From NCBI GenBank assembly GCA_021204845.1, contig JAJPYT010000197.1:1-47400 (forward strand): 47,400 nt of DNA. Reading direction: 5' to 3'. The DNA comes from Prevotellaceae bacterium (lineage in GTDB: Bacteria; Bacteroidota; Bacteroidia; Bacteroidales; Bacteroidaceae). The notes below the pieces were generated by a model. The model was not told the origin of the DNA, did not search any database, and worked only from the letters and a program-made list of their open reading frames with translations. A program made the position numbers and the translations under genes. Below, in pieces: positions 12,806 to 19,643 of this stretch (positions are counted from its first letter, which is position 1; every line of letters begins with the position of its first letter).

Positions 12806-12836
12806 TTTTCTAATTCAGAAAAAAACCATACCTTTG
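12806..12836 (+). promoter_or_regulatory. Promoter of the putative structured RNA
   Basis: TACCTTTG at 12829-12836 is a perfect TAnnTTTG -7 box. TTTT at 12806-12809 lies 19 bases upstream, an acceptable -33 element. No protein start follows at a sensible distance, and the sequence downstream is rich in hairpins. Confidence 0.5.
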
Positions 12837-12842
12837 ACATTG

Positions 12843-13147
12843 CCTAACCCACGCTGATACTTCTTCGGAGGTGGATGTTAAGGGTGGGTGCAAACATAGT
12901 AAAGGCGTTTACTGGCGCTTCGGTTTTGACTCTGTAGAATCTCGCAAATTCACTGTTCGTCAAAAACAAAGCGATGTCAACGTCCCTGGGGTGTATCTCA
13001 TACAGTTCGTGTTGGATTTCCATTGTACCAACAAGGCTTATGGATACCTGCTCAGCGTGGGGCTCTTGGCGTTGCTCGTTTCGACGAACAGGGCATGCGA
13101 GAGCCTTACAGGGTGGAACGGGCGGCAGACCGGCTCCACGTTTTTTA
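12843..13147 (+). ncRNA. Putative structured non-coding RNA, about 300 nt
   Basis: Between a good promoter and an intrinsic terminator the plus strand shows a series of stems: ACCCAC with GTGGGT near the 5' end, enclosing ACTTC-TTCG-GAGGT (a UUCG tetraloop); AGTAAA-GGCG-TTTACT at 12899-12914; TGTAT-CTC-ATACA near 12989-13001; GTTGG/CCAAC near 13010-13032; AAGGCT paired with AGCCTT across about 13035-13109; and inside that TCGT-TTCG-ACGA (second UUCG loop) near 13079-13090. The terminator closes it. Open frames on both strands here look like by-products. It does not resemble tmRNA, RNase P RNA or a tRNA to me. The class is unknown; it may be a repeated element in related genomes. Confidence 0.5.
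13113..13146 (+). terminator. Intrinsic terminator of the putative RNA
   Basis: GTGGA at 13113-13117 pairs with TCCAC at 13135-13139, with an inner CGG/CCG stem, and six T residues follow at 13141-13146. The T run is on the plus strand, which fixes the likely direction of transcription. Confidence 0.6.
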
Positions 13148-13223
13148 TTATGTCTGCCATGAGAAACAAATAAAGTCCGTAAGGAAGCCGACGGAATAGG
13201 GCGCTTATGGATAAGTTGCTTGT

Positions 13224-13265
13224 TAGTTTTGAGGTACTTCTCCTTTCGTTTGCTGAGAGCAAACG
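13224..13265 (+). promoter_or_regulatory. Possible promoter and leader hairpin of the accessory operon
   Basis: TAGTTTTG at 13224-13231 fits the -7 consensus, 75 bases before the first gene of the accessory operon; no convincing -33 is seen. Just after it, CGTTTGCT (13247-13254) and AGCAAACG (13258-13265) form a perfect 8-bp stem with a GAG loop in the presumed 5' leader. It is not followed by a T run, so it is not a simple terminator. Confidence 0.4.
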
Positions 13266-13305
13266 AGGCGATGCGACTATATAAATAAACCAAAAACTAA
13301 TTACT

Positions 13306-14367
13306 ATGGAAGGAAAAAATTATCTTAAGTTAGTGTGGTTGCTTGGCTATATAGCCTTTGCAGCAGTAAGTTGTTGGGCGACGGCAGAATCATTATATAT
13401 GCTATTGCCAAGTTGGCCAAAGGTGATGTGCTGGGTAGTTACAGTGGGTTTCTTCATTGTTGCCTCAATCGGCACAAAGATGATAGTGGACAGCTTCAAC
13501 CCAAACATCTATCTGGAGCATCGAGGAATGCGCCTTGTGGGTGGAATCATCATTGTACTGATGTTTTGGCTAATATGCAGTATGCCTACGAACACGCATA
13601 CGTTTTTCTACCGAAATGTTATCAGTGAAACTGTGGCACGCGACATCTCCACTACGCAAAGCTACCTTCGTCAGATAGAAAACAACACCTATAACAAGGC
13701 ACAGGCAGAACTAAAGGTAAGTGAGCTTAGAAATAAAGTGGAACTAAAATTAGGTGAACTCGAAGCTGAGATAAAGAATGAAGCAAATCCAGGTGATGGT
13801 CCTAAGTCGCAAGAAATTCGGAGAGAACTCGCATCGTTGCTGAATGTTCCCAAGATAGAATCGCTTACATATAAAAGCACTACCAAACAACAGCGGGAAA
13901 TATTATGTGACGCTTATCGCTCTAAAATATATGCCTTGCTTGATAACAGAATAAGCAATATCAGAAATGAGATACTATCTCCCAGCCCTCAAATAGTTAA
14001 GGAAGCAAAGACAGCAGGGAAGAATCTGGTAGAATTGAAGGGATTTATTGACGACGGAACCGTAAACTTGTATAACGCTAAGGATATAACCACTCAGGTT
14101 TGTGACAAACTTAACAATGGTTATAATATAATAAAACTGAATAGCATCTTTGTTAACTTCAATTCTGTGGATGATGAAAAGAAATACACAGACAATGACC
14201 CTGTCACGAGGGTTAAGAGCCTGAACAGCGTCTTTGACGTATGGTGTGATTATATCAAGGGGGAATATAATGGTCAGGGCTTTATCTACTGGATACTTAT
14301 ATCTATCCTTGTTGATGTTGCCGCCTTTGTGTTCTTTGACTTAGCATTTAGAAAAACAGAAGAATAA
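13306..14367 (+). CDS. Four-TM membrane protein, first gene of the accessory operon
   Basis: 353 residues. Three TM helices near the N-terminus (about 8-26, 40-57 and 76-93) are followed by a large hydrophilic, helix-rich region (100-325) with coiled-coil character around 115-160, and a last TM helix at about 328-348. I recognise no named domain or catalytic motif. The gene is AT-rich compared with the bat and grpE genes on either side and starts the tightly packed run 13306-18734; the GTPase gene follows after 24 bases. A structural or sensor component of a membrane complex is the simplest reading, but function is unknown. Confidence 0.8.
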   Translation: MEGKNYLKLVWLLGYIAFAAVSCWATAESLYMLLPSWPKVMCWVVTVGFFIVASIGTKMIVDSFNPNIYLEHRGMRLVGGIIIVLMFWLICSMPTNTHTFFYRNVISETVARDISTTQSYLRQIENNTYNKAQAELKVSELRNKVELKLGELEAEIKNEANPGDGPKSQEIRRELASLLNVPKIESLTYKSTTKQQREILCDAYRSKIYALLDNRISNIRNEILSPSPQIVKEAKTAGKNLVELKGFIDDGTVNLYNAKDITTQVCDKLNNGYNIIKLNSIFVNFNSVDDEKKYTDNDPVTRVKSLNSVFDVWCDYIKGEYNGQGFIYWILISILVDVAAFVFFDLAFRKTEE

Positions 14368-14391
14368 ACAATCATTTAAAACAATACGACT

Positions 14392-15429
14392 ATGCCAGAG
14401 CTAAATTTAAATTCTAAGGAAGAAAGTTCTCAAATAAAAATAGACCAACCAAACGCTCCAACAGAAGTGATTAGTTCCACAGAAAATTCTCCAACTACAG
14501 TTGTACAAGAAGGTCCTTCGTCGGAAGTATTTGATAACTCTAACAAAAATCCCATAGATATACATGACAAAGAAAAACCAATAACAGTTGTACAAGAAGG
14601 TTCTTCGTCAGAAGTAGTTGATGACCCTAACAAGATTCCCATAGATATACCTGACAAGGATACACCTATAATCATTTTTTTTGGACCGCGTGGTTGTGGC
14701 AAGACAATGACGTTAGTGAGGTTAAGCCGTTATTTGATAGGGAAAAGTTATAAAGTCAACCCCGAGGAATCTTTCAGACCAAATGATGATACGAAATACA
14801 AGCAACTGTGTAAAAACTTTGATTCAATGATTAACAAAAGCCTTGCAGCAGGCTCAACAAATAAGATTGATTATTTACTTGTGAAAGTTTATGATAAGGT
14901 TGGAAATCCGCTATTCCAAATTTTGGAGGGGCCAGGAGAGAATTATTTCGATCCCAAAGATCCAGAGAAACAATCCCCTGCTTATTTGAATTACATTATC
15001 AACAGAAATAACAGAAAGATATGGGTTGTTATGCTCGAACCTGTCAGCACGAAATATGGTATGGTGGAGAAAGATAGAAAAGGCTATGTGGATAAGATAA
15101 ATAACCTGAAAAAAAGAATAAAGCCTGCAGACAAGGTGATATTTCTATTAAACAAGATAGATGAAACGGCTTTCGTTATTTCTCCTGGGAATGTAAATAT
15201 GAGGCAGGCTAGAAAGTACGCAAATGATAACTATCCTAACATATTCGAAGCGTTTAAGAATTCTGTGCCTATACTCAACTGGTTTAAACCCTATAATTGT
15301 GACTTCACCGTATTTCAAACAGGTGATTACACGGTTTTAAAAGATGGCGTGACTCAGAGTTTTCAACAAGGAGATGAAATTTATCCCCGAAAATTATGGA
15401 ATCTTTTATTGAAGAAGATTAGAGGGTAG
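14392..15429 (+). CDS. P-loop GTPase-like protein with duplicated N-terminal segment
   Basis: 345 residues. After a low-complexity acidic N-terminus (1-90) comes a P-loop domain: Walker A GPRGCGKT at 98-105, an LEGPGE segment at 178-183 where the DxxG switch would be, and NKID at 254-257, the guanine-specificity motif. A segment of 29 residues (TVVQEG...PIDI.DK) is repeated in tandem before the domain, from an 87-base DNA duplication. No TM or signal peptide, so it should be cytoplasmic. From memory it resembles the TRAFAC-type conflict-system GTPases (double-GTPase group), but I cannot confirm this without a profile search. It lies five bases before the next gene, a membrane protein that may be its partner. 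Confidence 0.8.
   Translation: MPELNLNSKEESSQIKIDQPNAPTEVISSTENSPTTVVQEGPSSEVFDNSNKNPIDIHDKEKPITVVQEGSSSEVVDDPNKIPIDIPDKDTPIIIFFGPRGCGKTMTLVRLSRYLIGKSYKVNPEESFRPNDDTKYKQLCKNFDSMINKSLAAGSTNKIDYLLVKVYDKVGNPLFQILEGPGENYFDPKDPEKQSPAYLNYIINRNNRKIWVVMLEPVSTKYGMVEKDRKGYVDKINNLKKRIKPADKVIFLLNKIDETAFVISPGNVNMRQARKYANDNYPNIFEAFKNSVPILNWFKPYNCDFTVFQTGDYTVLKDGVTQSFQQGDEIYPRKLWNLLLKKIRG
14497..14670 (+). repeat. 87-bp tandem duplication inside the GTPase gene
   Basis: ACAGTTGTACAAGAAGG begins at 14497 and again at 14584, 87 bases apart, and the similarity continues for the whole unit. The reading frame is kept (29 codons). The copies have diverged at several sites, so the duplication is not very recent. 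Confidence 0.85.
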
Positions 15430-15434
15430 AAGTT

Positions 15435-16838
15435 ATGCAGGTTGATTTGTTTGTAGGAGGAGTTCCCCAGGGACAAGACTTCTGGGGAAAAGAAGAAGAT
15501 AGAGCCTACATAGAAGGTTTTTATGTGAAAGATGATAAGCAGAAGTTTCTCGTGCAGATACGTACTCTGAACTATAAACCATATTGTTGTTATAATTATT
15601 TGATGTATCGGGATGTCATTGCTTATGATAGTAGAGGGGGCTCCTATATAGGTCTTACATTAAGGTTTGATGCTTATTGTAGGGACATTCTTACCATATA
15701 TAACATACTTGACCTCGTTTATAAGAAGTATATATTAGGCAGTATATTAAAAGGTGAAAAAGGAAAGTTGAAATACACTGTTGGGCAGTTTGAGAATACG
15801 TCAGCTGTATTTAAACAAATGGAAGATGAGATTGTAACGTTAATAAATAATAAATGCTCATCGAGTAGCTTTGCTTCTTTGAACGGTTTCCCCTTGTTGG
15901 GAGCGAACTGTCCCCAGATATATCTATATGATGGTTATACAAATGATGATCTTGATACTTTAGTGAGGCAGTATGGAGGAGTGGCTATATCTCCTTATTA
16001 TAAGAGTAAACAGACTGCTACTTTGGAGCAGACGTACGAAACGAGATTACTGAGCGCGAAGCAACAGTATGAAAAGGAGTTGCAATGGAAGAAACAAGAA
16101 TACGAAAAAATTATAAATGATAATAATGCGGCTCTATCTATGGCTATGAAAACGCTTCAGGAACAGTTGCAAACGATAGCCAGTGGGTTGGAAGCTGAGG
16201 TTAAAAGGCTTGGTCGTGTAAGGGATGTCTCTGACATAGTTGCTAAGATAGAAGAGCCTCTTAAACAGATTGCGAATCCTATAGTGGAATTAGCTACTGC
16301 AATGCGTAGCTTTGAACATGGAGAAAACAATCTTGAGGAAGAAGGGGATGGAGGTATGGTATCTAAGCTTAGGCACAGAACCCAGAAGTTTTTGCCATTT
16401 GTTCTTGTAGTAATAAGCTTCATATTATTGCTCTACATAGCATATAACATCCATGGTCTACGTTCTTCGAGGATAAGCAGTAGTGAAACTAAGGTCGAGG
16501 AAACAGAGAGCAAAATAACCTTATCCGAAGAAATGGCTGAGCAACCTGATGGGTCACAAGCAAGCGAAGAGGTAGCAAAGTCCCAGCCAGTACCTGGTGT
16601 CGATGATGTCGCGATAAATATTGTGGAATATTCTGGTAAGGGCAACTTGCGGATAGGTACGACTTATACTGTTGAGGCTAAAAACGGTACTTCTAATGGG
16701 CGATGGAAAGTGGACGGCGCACATATGGAGAATGTGCCTGATAACAGAATAAAGATCACACCGGATAGCACGTCTGTGAGCATTATATATGCTATAGATG
16801 GTAAGGAAATAAAAAGAAGAGAATTAAGAGCGCAATGA
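15435..16838 (+). CDS. Membrane protein with N-terminal shared domain and C-terminal beta domain
   Basis: 467 residues. A globular N-terminal domain (1-190) without signal peptide contains SYIGLTLRFDAYC near 70-82 and QYGGVAIS near 179-186. A coiled coil follows (about 195-260), then a single TM helix at about 319-337, a low-complexity linker and a C-terminal domain (390-467) that looks like an Ig/PKD-type beta sandwich. The expected topology is N-terminus in the cytoplasm and C-terminus outside. The N-terminal domain parallels that of the last gene of the operon. The stop overlaps the start of the retropepsin gene by four bases. It is not a family I can name. Confidence 0.8.
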   Translation: MQVDLFVGGVPQGQDFWGKEEDRAYIEGFYVKDDKQKFLVQIRTLNYKPYCCYNYLMYRDVIAYDSRGGSYIGLTLRFDAYCRDILTIYNILDLVYKKYILGSILKGEKGKLKYTVGQFENTSAVFKQMEDEIVTLINNKCSSSSFASLNGFPLLGANCPQIYLYDGYTNDDLDTLVRQYGGVAISPYYKSKQTATLEQTYETRLLSAKQQYEKELQWKKQEYEKIINDNNAALSMAMKTLQEQLQTIASGLEAEVKRLGRVRDVSDIVAKIEEPLKQIANPIVELATAMRSFEHGENNLEEEGDGGMVSKLRHRTQKFLPFVLVVISFILLLYIAYNIHGLRSSRISSSETKVEETESKITLSEEMAEQPDGSQASEEVAKSQPVPGVDDVAINIVEYSGKGNLRIGTTYTVEAKNGTSNGRWKVDGAHMENVPDNRIKITPDSTSVSIIYAIDGKEIKRRELRAQ

Positions 16839-17374
16839 GAGTACAACAATTTATTTTAGGGTTGCTTTTGTTTGCAACCATTATCGCCTGCGGTGACGGA
16901 AAAAACGTTAGAGTTCCTGTATATACTGAAGTTGATGATGACGAAGAGGAGGAAGTGGAGCAGGATATTAAAACTGGTGATGAGGTAGTAGTGCCTTTCC
17001 GCAGCGAGAATGGTGTTAAGTATGTGCAGGTTAAGTTGAATGGTGTCGGCTTAGAGATGGTTTTCGACACAGGTTGCTCAGGAATGCATATATCTGTTGC
17101 GGAGGCGCAGTACCTTTACAGTAAGGGGACACTTACAGAAGAAGACTTTCTTGGTGTTTCGCCAACACAAACTGCAGACGGTAGTGTCAATGTGAATATG
17201 GTGGTGAATCTTCGAGAGGTTATTATTAATGATCAGATAAGATGCCCCGATGTTACTGCTACCGTCTCGGACAACACAAACGCTCCCCTACTTTTAGGAA
17301 ATGACGTGTTGGATAGGCTTGCGACCATCACGATAGATAATGTTAATAGTAATCTAATCTTCACGTTCAAGTAA
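16835..17374 (+). CDS. Retropepsin-like aspartyl protease, predicted lipoprotein
   Basis: 179 residues with an export signal and lipobox (IIAC, Cys19), then an acidic linker (31-45) and a single-domain clan AA aspartyl protease fold. The catalytic motif FDTGCSG is at about 76-82 and the second conserved element LLLGNDVLDRL near 151-161. Such proteins act as homodimers because each subunit gives one Asp. It should sit in the periplasm or on the outer membrane, not with the cytoplasmic GTPase of the same operon. Candidate substrates are the ectodomains encoded by the genes before and after it. It overlaps the upstream gene by four bases, and the next gene follows after one base. Confidence 0.85.
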   Translation: MRVQQFILGLLLFATIIACGDGKNVRVPVYTEVDDDEEEEVEQDIKTGDEVVVPFRSENGVKYVQVKLNGVGLEMVFDTGCSGMHISVAEAQYLYSKGTLTEEDFLGVSPTQTADGSVNVNMVVNLREVIINDQIRCPDVTATVSDNTNAPLLLGNDVLDRLATITIDNVNSNLIFTFK

Positions 17375-17375
17375 C

Positions 17376-18734
17376 ATGAATTGCACATCATACGTTTTCG
17401 CCAGCATTCGTGGAGTCTACTCTCAATACCCTAACGACTACACAAAACCATTATTCCATAAGTTCCTTGAGCTATCTTCAGCCAATTCTCAGATAATAAT
17501 GCACAGAAACGAAGGACTTGTCTATCACGGATATGTCCGCAAGTTAGAAGGAGGCTTGTCGTATATAGGCTTCTGCGTGGTACTAAACGGAGCTATGTTT
17601 GCCCGTACTAAACAGATGTTTCCTGTATTTGAGAAAGTGCTGACGAGTATGGCAGAAACTTATGGATTGCTTGCGTTGAACGACAAAGGAGATGTTATCC
17701 CCAGTTTCTCGGAATTTACTGAGCACCAAAAGAAGGTGGAGAATATCATTGTCGATATCAATAAGAATATAGAAGCCTCTGTTACGGATAGAGATTTGAA
17801 AGCGATACTCCGTGAGACTTATACGAATACGAGTGTCGAGTATAAAATATTTCCTGCAGAGGAAAAGGCAGAAGATATATTTGAGGCTGTTAAGTTATAC
17901 GGCTATGTGTGCGTGACAAACGATAAACACTATGTCTCCACTTTCCTTGCCAATTACCAAAAGGAGATTGAAACCTATGTTGCCAAAGTAAAAGAAATCG
18001 AAAAGGAATACAGCGAGCTAAAGGAGAAGTACGACAAGCAAGATGCGCAGAACAAGGTATCCGCGATAATAAAGGGGCTAAGCAAGATAGTTATAACTGC
18101 GGGTATATGCCTATGTGCAGTACTTCTGTTTATTCGTTTAGAGGATAAAATTACTTTGGAAAAGACTAAAACGGAACTGAATGATGCGCAGTCTTCAATT
18201 GAATCACAAAATGAAACTATAGCGGGACTAAGAGATAAAGTAACCAATTTGCAAGAAGACGTGAACAATTTGCAAGAAGACGTGAAATCGGAACAGAAGC
18301 GGACGACAGAAGCAGAAAGTGAATATGCCGATTTCAAGCGCTACGTAGGTCGCTATATGCCTGTGGTGATAACTGATGTGAAAATAGGAAATGTATATAA
18401 AGATGGAGATATTGAAACGGATTACGGCAATCATATTAAAAGTAACAGTACTATGTTCCTTCAGCCCCAGATAACTTATACGGGAATAATAACAGATGTG
18501 TCAATAACTGTATATATTAGGCTTTATACTCCATCTGGAAAAATGTCTAAGGTAGACTCCCAGAGGGACTATTCAACATCTGACAGTTTTTATGTAAATA
18601 GTGGAGATAGCAATACCATAACATTAGTAGGATTGAGGAACGCCTCACAAGGATACTGGTCAAAAGGAGATTATAGATACGAAATCTGGTATGGCAAGGT
18701 GTGCTTATACGCCAAGACTTTTACTATTTATTGA
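17376..18734 (+). CDS. Membrane coiled-coil protein, second carrier of the shared domain
   Basis: 452 residues. N-terminal globular domain (1-190) with LSYIGFCVVLNG at 61-72 and LYGYVCVT near 174-181, coiled coil (about 195-225), one TM helix at about 236-254, a second coiled coil (260-320) with a NLQEDV-N repeat from a 21-base duplication (18246-18287), and a C-terminal beta-rich domain (328-452) ending in a YRYEIWYGK...TFTIY strand pair. The order of parts matches the protein at 15435-16838, but the outer domains differ. The predicted topology is cytoplasmic N-terminus and external C-terminus. Function unknown; a sensor or scaffold that recruits the GTPase is an inference. Confidence 0.8.
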   Translation: MNCTSYVFASIRGVYSQYPNDYTKPLFHKFLELSSANSQIIMHRNEGLVYHGYVRKLEGGLSYIGFCVVLNGAMFARTKQMFPVFEKVLTSMAETYGLLALNDKGDVIPSFSEFTEHQKKVENIIVDINKNIEASVTDRDLKAILRETYTNTSVEYKIFPAEEKAEDIFEAVKLYGYVCVTNDKHYVSTFLANYQKEIETYVAKVKEIEKEYSELKEKYDKQDAQNKVSAIIKGLSKIVITAGICLCAVLLFIRLEDKITLEKTKTELNDAQSSIESQNETIAGLRDKVTNLQEDVNNLQEDVKSEQKRTTEAESEYADFKRYVGRYMPVVITDVKIGNVYKDGDIETDYGNHIKSNSTMFLQPQITYTGIITDVSITVYIRLYTPSGKMSKVDSQRDYSTSDSFYVNSGDSNTITLVGLRNASQGYWSKGDYRYEIWYGKVCLYAKTFTIY

Positions 18735-19643
18735 TGTTTTTGTTATGAGATTGAGTGATATAGGCTTATTTCTATAAAATTATAGAGGGCGTATCAAAAT
18801 GGATTTTGCAAGTGGTCTGAGAGACGGAGCCACTCAATAGGGATGTTTCGAGGTGAAACCACCGAGGTCTACTGCTGCCAGAAGCCTTTCACATCCTTCT
18901 TCTGTCGTATAACGATATGAATGATGACAGGTAACAGCCCTTTTAAGAAGCCACAGAAAGTTTATTATATTAGATTTTATATATATAATATCATATAATA
19001 TAAACTATCCTATCAAATAAGAACGGTGCAACCCTCAGCGAAACTAACCTTGCGATAAGCGAGAGGAGAGGGGGCCTCGACACTCTCCCGAGCGCCAGCA
19101 AGCTCAGCGAAGCCAATGATACTAAGTATTTACCCCTGTGCTAAAAGTTTATCAGATTATCACATACGCGCATATATAGATAATGATAAACTGATAAACT
19201 TCTTGCTGGCGGTCAATCCTCGGCGAAGCTACGAAGTTTATATTATATGTGCGTATATAGATAAATATAATATAATAAACTTTTTGTAAATCTTCAATTG
19301 TCTGTTTATTAGCGAACAAGCCAGGTTACAGTCAACGGTGCAACCCTCAGCGAAGCTAAACGAACCTAACGCTACCTGTTCCGCTTCCCCTAAATCACCG
19401 TACTGACATGCGTGAATCACCGCATTGACGCACGTGGATCAGTGCGATGACACGCGTGAATCAGTGCGGCGATAACTACTTGTTAGTGCTATGAGTGTTA
19501 CTCCTATCGCTGTGGGCTATCTGACCTGCGTCACCCTCTCCGCAACTCCCTATATTTCGGCTATATGGAAACTTTGCTCTTGCATTTGGAGTGATTGGCA
19601 TAGTTTTTGCTTACTGTGAAGGAAGAAAACAACAGATAAAGAT
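18735..19643. repeat. Repeat-rich intergenic mosaic between the accessory operon and grpE
   Basis: About 900 bases without a convincing gene. It contains three AT-rich palindromes with AAGTTTAT/ATAAACTT-type ends (about 18957-19008, 19145-19201 and 19234-19282), the last two sharing a GCGYATATATAGATAA-like core. Between them are copies of the GC-rich motif CCCTCAGCGAAGCTA or variants (19021-19047, 19101-19114, 19215-19236, 19333-19359). A GGGCGTATCAAAATGGA motif lies at 18786-18802. The minus-strand equivalents of two of these motifs are at 240-297. Confidence 0.7.
19393..19476. repeat. 22-bp imperfect tandem repeat, about 3.8 copies
   Basis: Units begin at 19393, 19415, 19437 and 19459, each of the form RATCA..G....TGA..... 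with a CGTG junction. The first three are exactly 22 bases; the last breaks down after about 18. It lies about 170 bases upstream of grpE. Confidence 0.7.

Follow-up and report, generated by a model that had tools for sequence, protein, structure and literature searches.

Attenuators and riboswitch-type leaders are the closest described relatives of the RNA reported here. Shared with them are a promoter, a long structured leader, helices predicted to exclude each other, a predicted intrinsic terminator and a gene close downstream. The present RNA (class I) differs in that it gave zero matches against Rfam 15 at gathering as well as permissive thresholds and has no common downstream function, so that a ligand is not suggested. 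It further adds a third pairing partner (P4) past the terminator and a kissing-loop core. Processive-antitermination leaders (EAR, put RNA and the targets of LoaP/UpxY) place one RNA before diverse, often accessory operons, as is the case here; however, the RNA described below is much larger, carries its own terminator and again has no counterpart in Rfam.

OLE, ROOL and GOLLD (PMC12286853) are likewise large bacterial RNAs with long-range and kissing contacts but, unlike the present RNA, which none of the Rfam models matches, they are not known as leaders of diverse operons. From the same order come the motifs Bacteroidales-1 (RF01693) and Bacteroid-trp (RF01692) (Weinberg 2010, PMC2864571), whose models fail to match. 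The RNA motifs of PMC8040213 are conserved RNAs of Bacteroidales, too, and were compared by order alone. Searches of the open literature yielded no description, and an overlap with one of the 3161 candidates of PMC8040213 is possible. The RNA may therefore be a common control device that has not yet been described.

Extent and homologues of the element

The window, i.e. the whole stretch of 47,400 nt of a Prevotellaceae contig that was analysed, carries the element on its plus strand at 12829-13195. It is composed of a promoter, a conserved structured RNA of ~300 nt and, beyond it, an additional small hairpin. A first-pass annotation made from the sequence had placed it at 12806-13147, an extent that was not upheld; its proposal of a ~300-nt structured RNA with promoter and terminator of its own is supported, with covariation as detailed below. 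The promoter that it had named is a Bacteroidota -7 element TAnnTTTG (TACCTTTG) at 12829-12836, and the motif is conserved at this place in 82 of 101 homologues, where 4.6 are expected. The terminator was also confirmed as a terminator-like hairpin with T6 at 13113-13146, and the U-tract is kept in most copies. A simple terminator scan of the window did not pick it up because the loop exceeds the length that the scan allows.

Homologues of about 12880 to 13150 were found by blastn in 114 of 301 genomes of the family, with 1-4 per genome and a single copy in the window's own genome; full-length blastn homologues are ~70-75% identical. The exact right-arm pattern occurs in at least 120 stretches of genome contigs, all from Bacteroidales where named. 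Titles among the matches listed comprise Prevotella, Segatella copri, Bacteroides, Phocaeicola, Mediterranea, Parabacteroides, Muribaculaceae, Paludibacteraceae, Tidjanibacter and other Bacteroidales; Bacteroides caecigallinarum is one of the species with a copy. A strict pattern yielded zero matches in 396 genomes across the phylum, which shows only that this exact motif is not phylum-wide, since the window's own copy fails the same pattern. Strict patterns miss the window copy because one nearly invariant A is absent from its right mini-hairpin, at 13092-13097 (GGGC-ATGCGA).

In total 141 non-redundant copies were assembled and strand-oriented. Most were retrieved with a pattern in which part of the right arm is fixed, and the invariance of this arm is therefore partly by construction. 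Among the copies found by blastn, i.e. without pattern selection, the right arm is equally near invariant. The partner strand c' (see below) is not fixed by the retrieval pattern.

Architecture of the structured RNA

An unbiased G-test with average-product correction was applied to all column pairs (effective number of sequences 109, median identity 58%); it is distinct from R-scape and, with sequences related by descent, gives rankings without formal E-values. The top covarying pairs of this ranking are those of three long-range helices, namely X, Y and the first pairs of K, and many of them occur in all four Watson-Crick forms (columns 133-315: AU 46, GC 27, CG 25, UA 23). On an independent MAFFT alignment of 62 copies the architecture gives 95.1% paired cells, compared with 87.0% after shuffling and 35-51% when it is slid, and 364 two-sided changes compared with 112. 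Since G-U cells outnumber A-C cells by 257 to 41, it is the plus strand that is RNA. The covariation is overwhelming and plus-strand specific, and the element is a structured RNA. Folding of the region beats shuffled sequences with z = -3.77 on the plus and -3.13 on the minus strand, and a tRNA/tmRNA search of the region returned none. As grounds for its refutation the first-pass annotation had named missing compensatory changes or evidence for a protein; compensatory changes are present and no protein was found, which favours an RNA.

A variable 5' hairpin (CCCACGC ... GGGTGGG, 12840-12893) is predicted by folding, and covariation in this segment is weak. Ahead of P1 follows the A-rich 5' strand of P0 (ACATAGTAAAG, 12894-12904), which can pair with the 3' strand (TTTTATTATGT, 13143-13153) across the U-tract. 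In the window this helix has 11 contiguous pairs, and in the family it reaches up to 14 bp, its family support being weak (mean best helix 7.8 versus 6.7 shuffled). P1, the left domain (12904-12984), consists of an outer helix GGCGTT/ACGTC and an inner helix (12917-12930 with 12959-12972). Its pairs are mostly 92-99% canonical in the 141 copies, and the inner helix is 96% paired in the alignment of 62 copies. The long-range helices X (12931-12936 with 13106-13112) and Y (12953-12959 with 13085-13091) provide top covarying pairs of the whole alignment. X is 97.4% paired, with two-sided changes in 6/6 pairs in the 62 copies, and Y is 94.8% paired, with two-sided changes in 5/5 counted pairs. Two mini-hairpins (12937-12951 and 13092-13105) have kissing loops, in which the 7-mer K joins TCTCGCA (12940-12946) to TGCGAGA (13096-13102); K is 98.8% paired and shows two-sided changes in 3 pairs. 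The middle stem P2 (12991-13052) has a variable loop and two-sided changes in 3 of 4 counted pairs.

P3, the right domain (13055-13141), has an outer helix (GCGTGGGGC/GCTCCACGT) that covaries and an inner helix (13071-13083 with 13114-13126) that is 99.4% paired, its changes being limited to A/G and C/T toggles. P1 and P3 resemble each other as stem-loops and are joined by X, Y and the kissing mini-hairpins. Judged by their connectivity, X, Y, P1 and P3 probably meet without linker bases, similar to a four-way junction. The terminator hairpin, GTGGA/TCCAC followed by T6 at 13141-13146, competes with P3. It has a median energy of -11.2 kcal/mol, and its stem varies among copies as GTGGGA/TCCCAC, GTGAGA/TCTCAC and GTGAAGC/GCTTCAC. 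The last hairpin, P4 (TCCGT-AAGGAAGCCG-ACGGA, 13176-13195), has a loop AGCCG that pairs with CGGCT of the terminator arm. Most of the individual stems that the first-pass annotation had named are not part of this architecture. The UUCG of CUUCUUCGGAGG falls in the variable 5' hairpin, that of GCGCUUCGG does not form a hairpin loop in the consensus, and the proposed AAGGCT/AGCCTT long-range pairing is not conserved as a helix: AAGGCT (about 13033-13038) falls within the variable P2 loop, and AGCCTT belongs to a mini-hairpin and helix X.

Position ahead of downstream operons

The next gene is co-directional in 119 of 125 copies, at a median of 70 nt past the element (IQR 53-86), with genes called by a simple longest-frame rule that can be wrong in single cases. 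Upstream genes are found either way (69 versus 55), and the downstream orientation has a binomial probability of 2e-23 against this upstream rate. TAnnTTTG lies between RNA and gene in 4 of 101 copies (5.5 expected), of which the window is one. The U-tract or the co-directional gene is missing from a few copies. As the orientation of the downstream gene is fixed, the promoter precedes the RNA and P4, beyond the terminator, covaries with the arm, the RNA is most probably a cis-acting 5' leader of whatever operon follows rather than a free-standing RNA. The first-pass annotation had left it open whether the RNA belongs to the operon or is a repeated element of its own; both apply, in that it is a family of repeated copies and the 5' leader of the following operon, while the free-standing RNA did not hold. 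In B. thetaiotaomicron 13.5% of mRNAs have a 5' UTR of >100 nt, proposed as potential sites of cis-regulatory RNA (PMC7366714), which makes a leader setting plausible.

According to gene calls and family search the window operon consists of five genes on the plus strand (13306-18734; 353, 345, 467, 179 and 452 aa) with almost no family matches. Gene 1 encodes a TM-like product, gene 2 a weak P-loop, gene 3 (467 aa) a product without assignment, gene 4 a retroviral-type aspartyl-protease-like protein and the fifth gene a coiled-coil. Homologues of gene 1 are present in 25 of 301 family genomes, and the five-gene operon was found again behind the RNA at two loci (L042 and L110). The window copy has extra sequence between P4 and the start codon (13209-13277). 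It holds another promoter-like motif, TAGTTTTG, near 13224 as well as a strong hairpin, CGTTTGCT-GAG-AGCAAACG; a second start is possible for this operon. Behind the operon and ahead of grpE, at 18750-19640, a long stretch poor in genes carries AT-rich hairpin-like repeats and repeated motifs of the CCCTCAGCGAAGC type.

A ligand-linked common pathway, as would be typical of a riboswitch, was not found among the downstream proteins, which fall into 221 clusters among 358 and have mixed functions. Matches include BREX, type III and IIG restriction, Dnd/Ssp and AbiE, furthermore BspA-type leucine-rich-repeat proteins, hybrid two-component systems and metabolic families; vWA/phosphatase/kinase-like sets were named from reading the sequences. 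The downstream sets matched 159 and 238 PADLOC families and the upstream control 90, these being counts of families, not proteins. Because PADLOC matches are common upstream too, this shows only that the neighbourhood is rich in accessory or defence genes, and not that the RNA regulates defence specifically. Strong PADLOC matches were seen for upstream neighbours of homologous loci (AbiD, DpdF and PDC families).

Competing partners of the terminator arm and a second leader class

P4 is located ~47 nt past the terminator. With the consensus GGAGCC its loop is complementary to the terminator arm GGCUCC, and arm changes are accompanied by matching ones in the loop (GACUCCC/GGGAGUC, AGGUUCUC/GAGAACCU, GUUUCCC/GGGGAAC). 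The site is present in 119 of 138 copies, compared with 49 in shuffled spacers, and real arms match their own P4 region better than swapped ones. Consequently, the arm has three mutually exclusive partners, namely c' (terminator with U-tract), the middle strand (P3 outer) and the P4 loop, each of which fits its own arm over swapped arms (z 7.6, 9.2 and 11.7, respectively; 0/500 each). c' varies almost only between bases that pair with the partner (275-328: UA 71, UG 70; 276-327: GC 92, GU 49). These three exclusive, covarying partners suggest a switch, which might be an attenuator and/or a translation gate.

As in an attenuator, an intrinsic terminator with a U-tract is predicted, its c':arm hairpin covarying and the U-tract being conserved. 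An antiterminator exclusive with it is predicted as well, since P3 inner, 99-100% paired, occupies the terminator's 5' strand. The strand opposite c' in P3 inner can instead pair with the left arm to give a rod, the helices of which are ~96-100% paired. Predicted energies are near each other (-100 for rod plus terminator versus -92 kcal/mol for P1+P3, with loop-loop pairs uncounted). Because the rod strands are near invariant, the rod has scant covariation of its own, and its pairing may follow from the likeness of P1 and P3. It counts against an attenuator that P3 outer, too, ends at the U-tract, so that the core fold itself might terminate; for this reason P3 outer is no longer read as a pure antiterminator. 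The U-tract may, moreover, provide one strand of P0.

The best explanation, which we consider somewhat probable, is a cis-acting leader that alternates between the core fold and rod plus terminator, with P4 relaying to translation. Transcription would start at TAnnTTTG, cross the ~300-nt RNA and, unless stopped, continue via P4 into the operon. The RNA would fold as P1 and P3 stem-loops tied by X, Y and the kissing mini-hairpins. Instead, the 3' arm of P3 (GGCUCCAC) could pair with c' (GUGGAACG), the strand immediately preceding it, to give the short intrinsic terminator, or else with the loop of P4, which is located ~25 nt ahead of the start codon. With an intact core fold c' would be locked in P3, which would block the terminator and allow transcription of the operon (ON). 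If the left and right arms paired as the alternative rod, c' would be free and the terminator would form (OFF). P4 would relay the state of the arm to translation; it cannot decide termination, because it is downstream of the terminator, and its covariation, the strongest of the three, fits translation control better. We infer the switched states, the assignment of ON and OFF and any driving signal or factor. Since the downstream operons have no evident common function, no signal is suggested.

The main rival is a leader acting purely on translation. In this reading the pseudoknot of arm and P4 loop near the start codon would admit or exclude ribosomes, and the U-tract would be no terminator but simply the 3' strand of P0. 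The strongest swap signal is that of the P4 pairing, at a median of 25 nt before the start codon, P0 forms long helices across the U-tract, and classical Shine-Dalgarno sites are little used in Bacteroidota, which we count in its favour. However, the c':arm hairpin, behind which the U-tract is conserved, also covaries, and neither P0 nor P4 by itself would require this, so that we regard this rival as possible, but rather unlikely. A free-standing small RNA acting in trans and ending at the U-tract, next to an operon with its own promoter, would account for the promoter and terminator of the element, for several copies per genome and for the promoter-like motif in the window's spacer. It is improbable given that orientation and spacing of the downstream gene are fixed, that promoter motifs in the spacers are at chance level and that P4, beyond the terminator, coevolves with the arm.

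A mobile or repeated DNA element (MITE-like or a recombination site) inserted before genes would fit the dispersal of copies in unrelated contexts, but the copies are just ~58% identical rather than near-identical, strictly oriented and tolerant of G-U rather than A-C. They are also essentially absent from viral contigs (2 matches in the pattern search), and phage and plasmid records gave zero matches in the same search; a phage, plasmid or viral origin was rejected, and we consider mobile DNA highly improbable. A protein-coding region on either strand, to which open frames of 100 aa (plus) and 149 aa (minus) could point, is scarcely conceivable. As the first-pass annotation had supposed, these frames are not genes: they have no Pfam or other family match, element length modulo 3 is uniform in 139 copies, and an open frame is retained on just 38 of 278 strands.

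The analysis also covered the loci of relatives of the window's first gene (n=20). Class I RNA lies nearby upstream in 11 of them, and L185 has a diverged copy recognised by eye. Five of the 20 have upstream a different sequence of like plan, class II (L176, L177, L189, L190 and L193), and in 3 neither class is visible by eye, which counts against the leader model. The class II plan comprises a promoter, a left hairpin, two kissing mini-hairpins, a mid strand complementary to the last arm and a U-tract. By BLAST class II was detected in 20 of 301 genomes, in some by short matches only, and it has zero matches in Rfam. Presumably, class II is a sequence-unrelated leader of the same architecture and a candidate second class, its likeness to class I being one of architecture alone.

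Both classes could, as a tentative proposal, represent a general plug-in RNA switch of Bacteroidales: a bistable kissing-loop leader in at least two sequence-unrelated classes that would place many unrelated accessory operons under one common cellular signal, among them those for restriction, for BREX and Dnd-like defence, for surface leucine-rich-repeat proteins and for signalling sets. Bacteroidales are a dominant order of gut bacteria for which, to our knowledge, few large RNA regulators have been described. A leader common to unrelated accessory operons would imply a common signal or factor over variable genes, including those for defence and surface proteins, and it might become a tool to switch such operons. 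With its three competing partners, the arm lends itself to clear mutation tests.

Further class II loci (L196-L203, L207, L208, L210 and L214) were found, also before other genes. The class II equivalent of K, a kissing 6-7-mer, varies as a unit in 16 of 17 cases, with the pairs TGCGAC/GTCGCA, TTGCAC/GTGCAA, TACCAC/GTGGTA, TAGCAC/GTGCTA and TGCTAC/GTAGCA.
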